A stretch of DNA of 54,620 nucleotides, taken from an uncultured bacterium (GTDB taxonomy: Bacteria > Patescibacteriota > Minisyncoccia > Phycocordibacterales > UBA9973). The position numbers were made by a program, and so were the translations under genes. Shown here piece after piece: positions 36,583-39,328 of this stretch. The stretch spans positions 1 through 54,620 of the forward strand of contig CAIQAL010000031.1 of assembly GCA_903869825.1 (NCBI GenBank), written 5' to 3'. The first letter of the stretch is position 1. Each line of letters begins with the position of its first letter. The notes beneath the pieces are model-generated. The model was not told the origin of the DNA. It saw nothing but the letters and a program-made list of their open reading frames with translations, and did no database searches.

Positions 36583-36603
36583 GGGTGCAGTAAAAGTATT
36601 ATT
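36583..36603. repeat. DGR-flanking palindrome, copy 1
   Basis: TTACTGCAC-TGG-GTGCAGTAA, adjacent to the RT stop codon; near-identical copy at 39306-39328. Confidence 0.85.
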
Positions 36604-36608
36604 TTAAA

Positions 36609-37598
36609 CTATATCTCAACTCCATTCTTGTTTTTAATATATTTCCTTAATTTGTAAGTATCTCCATGCCCAAGTAATCCCCGATATGAATTTACCGTTT
36701 CTGGCTTCGGATAACCCTTTAATTTCCTGATTATTTTTCTTTTGGTAGAAGTCCTGATTTGCCGATGATATGGAAAATGCACCCAACCCAAAAAATCTAC
36801 CCCTGAAGCATAGGTCTTGATATATACTTTGTTTTCGTGCAGTTTTAACTTCAGTTTTTCGTTTAAAAACTTTTCCATTTTAAGAAGCAGTTCTTCTAAG
36901 TAATTCTCGTTGTCAGATAAGATCGCAAAATCGTCAGCATAGCGAATGTAGTATTTCACTCTAAGTTCCTGTTTTACAAACATATCAAATTCATGCATAT
37001 AAATATTCACAAAAAGTTGTGATGTTAAATTGCCTAAAGGTAAACCCACTCCGATTTTTGTCGTATGAAAACTTGAGATTACTTGTTTAATCAACCAATG
37101 CATTTCTTCGTCTTCAATATGTCGCCTAAGAATTTTGTATAAAACATCATGGTCAATACTGGCAAAAAACTTTTTAATATCGCCCTTCAGCACGTAGCAG
37201 GTTCTGGTATTATTTTTGGATACTTTCCTGGCAAAATATTGAAATCTGTCCAATGCTCTATGCGTTCCTTTTTTCTTACGACAAGAATATGAATCGTAAA
37301 TAAAGCGTTGGTCGAAATATGGATATAATTCTTTGTAGATTAAATGGTGTAGAAGTCTGTCTCGAACTGTTGCTTTATGAATATTTCTTGGCTTCGGGTC
37401 AGAAACATTAAAAGCAGAATATTCTCCATGCTTGTACGTTCTTGTTTGTAGAAGATAATATAAATCATTTATGTTATCTCCGAGTTTTGCTTGAAAAATT
37501 ATCACGCCTTTCTTTTTTCGTTTGCCACGAAGAAAACGCTCCCAAGTCACAAGGAGATTTTCGATTGATATGATATTGTTGTATTTATGAATAAACAT
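36609..37598 (-). CDS. DGR-type reverse transcriptase (start revised to MFIHKYNN, 37598)
   Basis: RDRLLHHLIYKELYPYFDQRFIYDSYSCRKKKGTHRALDRFQ; VGLPLGNLTSQLFVNIYMHEFD (DGR-type GxxxSQ motif); YIRYADDF catalytic motif; VDFLGW. Confidence 0.95.
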   Translation of the reverse strand: MFIHKYNNIISIENLLVTWERFLRGKRKKKGVIIFQAKLGDNINDLYYLLQTRTYKHGEYSAFNVSDPKPRNIHKATVRDRLLHHLIYKELYPYFDQRFIYDSYSCRKKKGTHRALDRFQYFARKVSKNNTRTCYVLKGDIKKFFASIDHDVLYKILRRHIEDEEMHWLIKQVISSFHTTKIGVGLPLGNLTSQLFVNIYMHEFDMFVKQELRVKYYIRYADDFAILSDNENYLEELLLKMEKFLNEKLKLKLHENKVYIKTYASGVDFLGWVHFPYHRQIRTSTKRKIIRKLKGYPKPETVNSYRGLLGHGDTYKLRKYIKNKNGVEI

Positions 37599-37641
37599 AC
37601 TAAGACTATAAATTACCCCCCCCCCCGCACAAGCACCGCTT

Positions 37642-37989
37642 GTGCTTGTGCGTACCAAAGATTCGTATAAAGTTTGGCACACACATTTAGTTAACATCTC
37701 TAAGGTAAACAGGCACACAATTGGTGTAAAAATTGATGGTATCTTTCTATCTTTGCTTGAAACAATATTTAGAGCAACTTTCGCCAGTGATAAATTTGAA
37801 AAGTTGTCTCTTGTATCTCAAGCCATTGGTAAGGCTGACCTGTTAAAATTCTTTCTACAAATTGGCTGGGAACAGAAAATGCTTGACCACACTGTTTACG
37901 GAAATATTATTCTTCAACTAGACGAAGTTGGTCGAATGTTGGGCGGATGGAAAAAGAGTTTACAAGAAAAAACTCCCGCCAATAAATAG
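37642..37989 (+). CDS. avd: Avd-type four-helix-bundle DGR accessory protein
   Basis: NRHTIGVKIDGIFLSLLETIFRATFASDKFEKL...YGNIILQLDEVGRMLGGWKKSL; located between RT and TR, opposite strand. Confidence 0.87.
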   Translation: MLVRTKDSYKVWHTHLVNISKVNRHTIGVKIDGIFLSLLETIFRATFASDKFEKLSLVSQAIGKADLLKFFLQIGWEQKMLDHTVYGNIILQLDEVGRMLGGWKKSLQEKTPANK

Positions 37990-38005
37990 TAGGAGAAAAC
38001 GGTAT

Positions 38006-38129
38006 AAGTTGCAGAAGACGAGAATCACGTTGTTGTCATCCCAGTCATTCTCGAAGTAACCAAGATTGAACTTGAAGTTACCGTCCGAGTTGGCATTCAC
38101 GTTAGGCACCCTGTGGTTGCCGTCAGCGT
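38006..38129 (-). repeat. DGR template repeat (TR)
   Basis: 124-nt ungapped match to 38494-38617; 16 mismatches, all at A in the TR (minus-strand sense). Confidence 0.96.
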
Positions 38130-38395
38130 ACGCAAAGCAACGTACAACACACTTTCTTTCCCACTAAAATCAGCACCAGCCAATTTTTGTATTTTATTTT
38201 GAGTCTTAATAACTCACTAATGTATTGCACCGACTTATTTTGTTTTTTCATGAAAGGACGCACTCATTCACAAGACGTATCCAATGAACCCCTCGCGTTT
38301 CCTTTGACGAGAAATTGACTATGTGAAGTCGTAACCGCGCATCAATCTTTTTCCTTTTTTGATTATATCTTAAAAATTAAATTTTACATAAAAAA

Positions 38396-38421
38396 AGTGC
38401 CTTTACAAAAGTAAAGGCACT
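38396..38421 (-). terminator. rho-independent terminator downstream of the DGR target gene
   Basis: AGTGCCTTTAC-tttt-GTAAAGGCACT followed by T-run on the minus strand; perfect 11-bp stem. Confidence 0.85.
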
Positions 38422-38465
38422 AGAATCAAGGGTCTAAGGACCCAATGTTTTTAGAATCAAAGCGA

Positions 38466-39206
38466 CTAAGTGCTAGCCTGCTCGCTAGCAGGCAAGTCGC
38501 AGAAGACGAGAATCACGTAGAAGTCATCCCAGTCACCCTCGAAGTAACCAAGAACGAACCCGAAGCCACCGTCCGAGTAGGCATCCACGTAAGGCACCCT
38601 GTGGTAGCCGTCAGCGTCTTCCCAGAGAGCATCCTTTTCATCAAAAGAAATCGTCCATTTGCCCTTTAAGAGTTTTTCTTTTGCAACGTCGTAAACCAAC
38701 GTTACACCCTGCCCGCCTGCTAATATGCCATTGTACCTGCGCGAGATATTCATACAATCTTCGCTCGTTACTGTTTCGAGTATCGGAATCATTTTCACTC
38801 TGTAGGTTTTGCCGGGTTCCAGCTTTCGGGTTGCTTTTGAAAAATTCTTGCTATTGAGGTCATTGTTGTAGTAATACGTAGTCTTTTCCTTTTTTGCTTT
38901 TTGGGCAGAGGCGTCAATCTGCGTATCGTGGTTGTAGTCAGCAGGAACAGTTAAGTTAAATTCAACAGGAATACCGAAGCGTTTGTCAATGATTGCAAAC
39001 TTTTTGAGTAATGCGGTCATAAACGTTTTGATTTCGTCCTGAATTAAATTCCCTTTTTTGAAAATTTCCTGTGCTTCTTCCTTAGTAAAACCAAGGTTGA
39101 CGAGGTCACCGGAATTAAATGAATTAATTCCATCTTCAAGCAACCTCTTGATTGCCTTAAGCTGACCTTCGGTCATAGGATCTGATGTAATCTTTTCAGT
39201 TATCAT
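38466..39206 (-). CDS. DGR target (variable) protein, likely C-type-lectin-like C-terminal fold
   Basis: VR encodes the C-terminal DADGYHRVPYVDAYSDGGFGFVLGYFEGDWDDFYVILVFCDL. Confidence 0.92.
   Translation of the reverse strand: MITEKITSDPMTEGQLKAIKRLLEDGINSFNSGDLVNLGFTKEEAQEIFKKGNLIQDEIKTFMTALLKKFAIIDKRFGIPVEFNLTVPADYNHDTQIDASAQKAKKEKTTYYYNNDLNSKNFSKATRKLEPGKTYRVKMIPILETVTSEDCMNISRRYNGILAGGQGVTLVYDVAKEKLLKGKWTISFDEKDALWEDADGYHRVPYVDAYSDGGFGFVLGYFEGDWDDFYVILVFCDLPASEQAST
38476..38493 (-). promoter_or_regulatory. hairpin/cruciform abutting the 3' end of the VR
   Basis: GCCTGCT-AGCG-AGCAGGC (7-bp stem, 4-nt loop) directly adjacent to the VR boundary. Confidence 0.8.
38494..38617 (-). repeat. 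DGR variable repeat (VR)
   Basis: in-frame 3' part of ORF 38466-39206; A-specific divergence from the TR. Confidence 0.96.
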
Positions 39207-39255
39207 CGTTATAAAGTTTTCAAAGGGCTAAATCATTTGTTCATTAGCCAAATAC

Positions 39256-39284
39256 ATTATATCACATATCATATAAAAATGCAA
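39256..39284 (-). promoter_or_regulatory. sigma70-like promoter of the DGR target gene
   Basis: TTGCAT-N17-TATAAT on minus strand upstream of 39206. Confidence 0.6.
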
Positions 39285-39305
39285 ATTTTTGTTAGGTACA
39301 TTCAC

Positions 39306-39328
39306 TTTACTGCACCTGGTGCAGTAAA
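39306..39328. repeat. DGR-flanking palindrome, copy 2
   Basis: TTTACTGCACC-T-GGTGCAGTAAA; shares TTACTGCAC..GGTGCAGTAAA with 36583-36604. Confidence 0.85.

Follow-up and report, generated by a model that had tools for sequence, protein, structure and literature searches.

Is the retroelement at positions 36583-39328 of the window (the whole 54,620-nt stretch of DNA analysed here) always ready to mutate its target gene, or can the mutator itself be switched on and off? The mutagenesis driven by diversity-generating retroelements (DGRs) is costly when it never stops, and little is known about its gating. CPR bacteria are among the groups richest in DGRs, and the genome studied here (774 kb, 98.7% complete) has Nomurabacteria and other CPR bacteria as its nearest named relatives. 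The span holds a complete DGR, whose parts follow one another on the minus strand in the order target gene with its variable repeat (VR), terminator-like hairpin, TATAAT box, folded RNA, template repeat (TR) and reverse transcriptase (RT), with avd on the opposite strand. The DGR class is known; the proposed switch and the RNA layout are what is new here. Three features, all conserved in relatives, go beyond an ordinary DGR: an antisense avd gene, a simple sequence repeat (SSR) behind its start codon, and a structured RNA located 5′ of the TR.

Features of the DGR locus, in window coordinates
Feature	Position	Strand	Basis or remark
Palindrome TTACTGCAC-TGG-GTGCAGTAA	36573..36593	.	RT end of cassette
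DGR reverse transcriptase, MFIHKYNN... to stop	36609..37598	-	motifs, profile and structure-sequence matches
avd	37587..37989	+	antisense to RT and located between it and TR; core conserved from about 37627
C11 simple sequence repeat, avd 5′ coding region	37616..37626	+	sequence, frame analysis
In-frame GTG codons past the tract, possible weak internal starts	37642..37650	+	not conserved in relatives
Terminator-like stem then T6, just 3′ of TR, antisense to last avd codons	37967..37995	-	sequence
Template repeat (TR)	38006..38129	-	repeat comparison
Structured RNA domain directly 5′ of TR (model R1, 217 positions, 45 pairs)	38130..38345	-	covariance model
TATAAT -10-like box of TR RNA	38362..38367	-	sequence
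Intrinsic-terminator-like hairpin and T7 after target gene	38390..38420	-	sequence, by eye
Target gene, 246 aa	38466..39206	-	VR at in-frame 3′ end; VR domain weakly C-type-lectin-like
Inverted repeat GCCTGCT-AGCG-AGCAGGC directly after VR	38476..38493	-	sequence, by eye
Variable repeat (VR)	38494..38617	-	repeat comparison with TR
Palindrome TTACTGCAC-CTG-GTGCAGTAA	39307..39327	.	target end of cassette

The RT harbors both the LPLGNLTSQ motif, on which a sequence-only reading of this DNA had based its assignment to the DGR type, and YADD. It passes Pfam RVT_1, matches phrog_1423 at 4e-106 and shares 30.6% identity with BPP-1 brt (5e-34). Among solved structures its sequence is closest to 8ub7 (2.3e-42), the best-scoring group II intron RT reaching 3.5e-20, and in these sequence comparisons the enzyme grouped neither with group II introns nor with retrons. 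On these matches the assignment holds, and the element is a DGR. The Avd-like protein proposed in the same reading was likewise recovered: it scores 43.6 bits against bAvd PF22296 (cut-off 40), and lies under the NCBIfam Avd equivalog cut-off.

The TR and VR, the latter placed at the in-frame 3′ end of the target gene as had been proposed, differ at 16 of 124 positions. All 16 mismatches fall at TR adenines (9 A>G, 7 A>T), which make up 33 of the 124 TR bases, and in most relatives the TR/VR differences are again almost only at adenines. The pair looks used. The genome yielded no further VR, and the VR revealed nothing clear in variation among sibling samples; two VRs matching one TR, corresponding to two target copies, were observed in five relatives (L052, L053, L067, L118 and L130). 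The inverted repeat after the VR has a 7-bp stem at this locus. The AlphaFold model of the target protein has a pLDDT of 81 and is confident over its C-terminal two-thirds. Most of its top matches by fold in the PDB are C-type lectin domains, with weak scores (best E 0.36), and a sequence search against the PDB gave matches at chance level only. A C-type-lectin fold is thus plausible for the C-terminal VR domain, as judged from the model.

The first departure from the familiar layout is the strand of avd. The gene lies opposite to the RT strand, between TR and RT, in 235 of the 236 loci from CPR genomes and metagenome contigs that carry both genes, and the sole exception (L049) is a Firmicutes record. 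In the control set of viral and other non-CPR DGRs, avd is on the RT strand in 61 of 61. Its amino acids are conserved while synonymous codons mostly are not, except for the last codons next to the TR; avd is therefore a genuine antisense gene, and the antisense orientation is the rule in the CPR DGR clade. The ATG at 37587 lies over codon 4 of the RT on the opposite strand. The usual avd start in relatives is likewise the ATG complementary to RT codon 4, and where this is missing another ATG is found nearby.

Directly after the avd start codon, 195 of 211 unique loci carry an SSR. Its unit is C in 175 loci (C6 to C15, tract lengths being assembly consensus values), (CT)n in 14 and (CA)n in two, and single loci have (AG)12, (GTCA)8, (AACC)10 and one A7 run, which is also counted. 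Six different units (C, CT, CA, AG, GTCA, AACC) thus occupy the same place, and the quality of being a repeat is kept while the repeat unit turns over. None of 56 non-CPR avd genes used as a control has such an SSR. A short inverted repeat, GCACAAGC-ACC-GCTTGTGC at 37627-37650, adjoins the C tract in the window, with similar ones in L052, L054, L059 and L061; it may promote slippage.

The reading frame leading into the repeat is maintained. Read from the codon-4 ATG, the frame runs without a stop up to the SSR in 115 of 115 loci; the other two frames do so in 16 and 20. Counting only the bases outside the RT overlap the leader frame is open in 106 of 106 (73 and 42 for the others). Where the SSR is missing, the ATG is in frame with avd in 15 of 16 loci (P about 8e-7 for a random frame); in the out-of-frame exception, L004, the C tract is interrupted and an internal TGA lies in the RT. 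All four C6 tracts are in frame as well, and longer tracts occur in all three frames. The first open ATG is in phase 0, 1 or 2 in 38, 92 and 44 loci with C tracts and in 7, 4 and 8 loci with other SSRs. Overall, 53 SSR loci are ON, with the Avd core in frame, and 140 are OFF.

The frames also appear to be short-lived. On the RT tree we counted 77 frame changes, within the range of 70 to 88 for shuffled labels, and 46 ON/OFF changes, where the shuffled mean is 45. The frame thus carries no phylogenetic signal and would be lost faster than the sampled lineages diverge. Among relatives, near-identical contigs differ in tract length: the tract is the sole difference between L033 and L076 over 4919 bp and between L098 and L011 over 2853 bp, and it is accompanied by one SNP between L126 and L127 over 6528 bp and by three between L074 and L076 over 7322 bp. 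These comparisons amount to three independent contig sets, because L033, L074 and L076 form one strain group. No indel was found in other homopolymers of at least 7 bases within the compared stretches.

In the window, the tract of 11 cytosines puts the Avd core out of frame, so the allele reads OFF: the frame from the ATG at 37587 ends after 27 residues. A tract of C10 or C13 would give one open frame running from this ATG through Avd to the stop. The description of the locus as a complete, active-looking DGR thus stands for its parts and for the TR/VR pair, but the avd allele itself looks OFF, unless translation starts at the GTG at 37642 or 37648 or the ribosomes shift frame. Among the 140 OFF alleles, 83, including that of the window, offer a GTG or TTG in frame, either ahead of the Avd core or just inside it, 13 offer an in-frame ATG there, and 44 have none of these; such codons might provide some Avd. 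The OFF state of C tracts may also be leaky, because one +1 slip of the ribosome on CCC-C would be enough to bring the OFF frame that they prefer (92 of 174, P 3e-7) back into register.

An SSR behind the start codon, mixed frames and tract indels together form the signature of phase variation, and the mutator itself therefore appears switchable. As in contingency genes, the repeat lies between the avd start codon and the coding core with its number of units setting the frame, and its length differs between close relatives, in three near-identical contig sets. We consider it very probable that this is a CPR-type DGR with a phase-variable avd. Translation would begin at the ATG antisense over the first RT codons and read through the hypermutable repeat into the Avd core; slippage would alter the repeat length and toggle Avd between in-frame and out-of-frame states. 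Reversible switching is what we infer from these patterns. In BPP-1, Avd is needed for cDNA synthesis and retrohoming. By analogy, OFF cells would lose Avd and mutagenesis would stop, so that each cell lineage should switch hypermutation of the target gene on and off at random, at whatever rate the repeat slips.

Three other explanations were weighed against a phase-variable avd. The locus could be an ordinary DGR, with a homopolymer that is neutral or was created by assembly, and with an avd that starts at a GTG or TTG behind it. The in-frame GTG codons at 37642 and 37648 would fit, as would the 92 of 195 loci that have a GTG or TTG between SSR and core (seven have an ATG); however, 96 of the 195 have no start codon there. 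Neutrality or artefact is also hard to reconcile with different repeat units at the same place, with a leader frame that is always open, with C runs of at least 8 at only four places in the 774-kb genome, and with the constancy of other homopolymers in the compared contigs, and we regard this explanation as highly improbable. It is very unlikely, too, that the tract serves the RT, through promoter spacing, RT translation or a G-rich element in the RT leader RNA. Homopolymers that set promoter spacing are known, as for NadA (PMC2791445), and the tract does lie close upstream of the RT ATG, at a distance of a few tens of bases. Yet in loci without the repeat it is the avd frame that is kept and not the spacing to RT, stops interrupt the RT frame between the SSR and the RT ATG in 66 of 195 loci, and the CT, CA, AG and tetranucleotide units share no G-rich element.

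The C tract might instead be a programmed +1 frameshift or transcript-slippage site that constantly holds Avd at a low level, without any switch. This deserves somewhat more consideration, and would account for the excess of C tracts in the frame that one +1 slip corrects (92 of 174). We nevertheless judge it unlikely: repeats other than C show no such excess (4 of 19), all three frames occur, and tract length differs between near-identical contigs. A phase-variable avd is thus the reading that we retain.

The second departure concerns the template RNA. An alignment of 28 relatives folds, directly 5′ of the TR, into hairpins and a 12-bp stem that encloses two more. In the resulting model, R1, 40 of 45 pairs show double changes and 96.2% of cells are paired; the covariation is 0.883 versus 0.329 for shuffled alignments and at most 0.19 for slid structures. 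The G-U pairs place the folded RNA on the TR strand. As a covariance model, R1 finds 97 of 100 held-out loci and 29 of 60 genus genomes, and has one match in the window (195 bits). No significant match was found in 85 viral and other non-CPR DGR loci, and no known RNA family in Rfam matched. The 3′ end of R1 abuts the TR, and the VR-to-TR distance is steady in most relatives (about 315-445 nt). A TATAAT-like box lies at most 45 nt upstream of R1 in 78 of 97 loci (about 50 in shuffles), clustering at -20 to -28. The template would thus be a separate small RNA with its own promoter, a 217-nt folded domain, the TR and a terminator-like stem, and the folded domain would be what RT-Avd binds.

These observations set the locus beside known systems. 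It resembles the BPP-1 DGR in its RT family, Avd, adenine-specific TR/VR differences, VR at the 3′ end of the target gene and inverted repeat after the VR. Unlike in BPP-1, avd is antisense and carries an SSR, the TR RNA appears to be transcribed as a unit of its own, and the folded domain is 5′ of the TR instead of 3′. The structured spacer that recruits RT-Avd in BPP-1 lies 3′ of the TR (PMC12875486); here no such spacer was found 3′ of the TR, where the antisense avd is about 17 nt away. By analogy, the 5′ domain may do the job of the BPP-1 spacer. Homology between the two was considered and rejected, the two weak matches upstream of viral RTs being a tetraloop hairpin and a terminator.

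In its host group and as a cell-encoded DGR, the element is reminiscent of the Patescibacteria DGR clade (clade 2) of Roux et al. 2021 (PMC8144416), the text of which makes no mention of avd, accessory genes, orientation, antisense or hairpins. Among the papers listed by searches of the DGR literature, with Paul 2017 and Wu 2018 outside their scope, none describes phase variation, slipped-strand repeats or a structured RNA of this kind; the antisense avd of CPR DGRs may already have been noted before. The repeat itself recalls the SSR contingency loci of Campylobacter, Neisseria and Haemophilus, with G/C homopolymers and di- or tetranucleotide repeats behind the start codon and with mixed ON and OFF frames, but in this case the gene being switched belongs to a mutator and the host is a CPR bacterium.

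The DGR is framed exactly by two 21-nt palindromes, which are nearly identical and are found nowhere else in the genome. They are absent from the 79 other genomes of the genus (80 including this one) and from the DGR flanks of the relatives examined, and a search of viral contigs gave one match. Mobility of the cassette by means of these palindromes was considered and rejected, since they are unique to this genome and not located at the DGR flanks of relatives. The relatives searched offer no usable empty site, as they lack synteny with the genes that flank the cassette. The palindromes may be regulator sites or element ends. A large serine recombinase ORF (41437-42546) overlaps by its 3′ end a tRNA-Asn (41377-41451) on the other strand. 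No N-terminal catalytic domain was matched in the scanned ORF, which is possibly a decayed integrative element beside the DGR.

The position of the repeat, the turnover of its units, the frame statistics, the tract indels and the RNA covariation can be read from the sequences themselves. Taken across the CPR DGR clade, they probably reflect a two-tier mutation system, in which repeat slippage would randomly arm and disarm a target-hypermutating retroelement whose template RNA is rearranged, with a putative protein-binding fold ahead of the template. The covarying 5′ RNA domain can serve directly as a covariance model in searches for CPR DGRs and offers a testable alternative layout of the DGR ribonucleoprotein. 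If the switch is true, avd would join the small number of contingency loci known from beyond the cultured bacteria, and a heritable random switch inside the DGR would be a general answer to the gating of mutagenesis in CPR DGRs.
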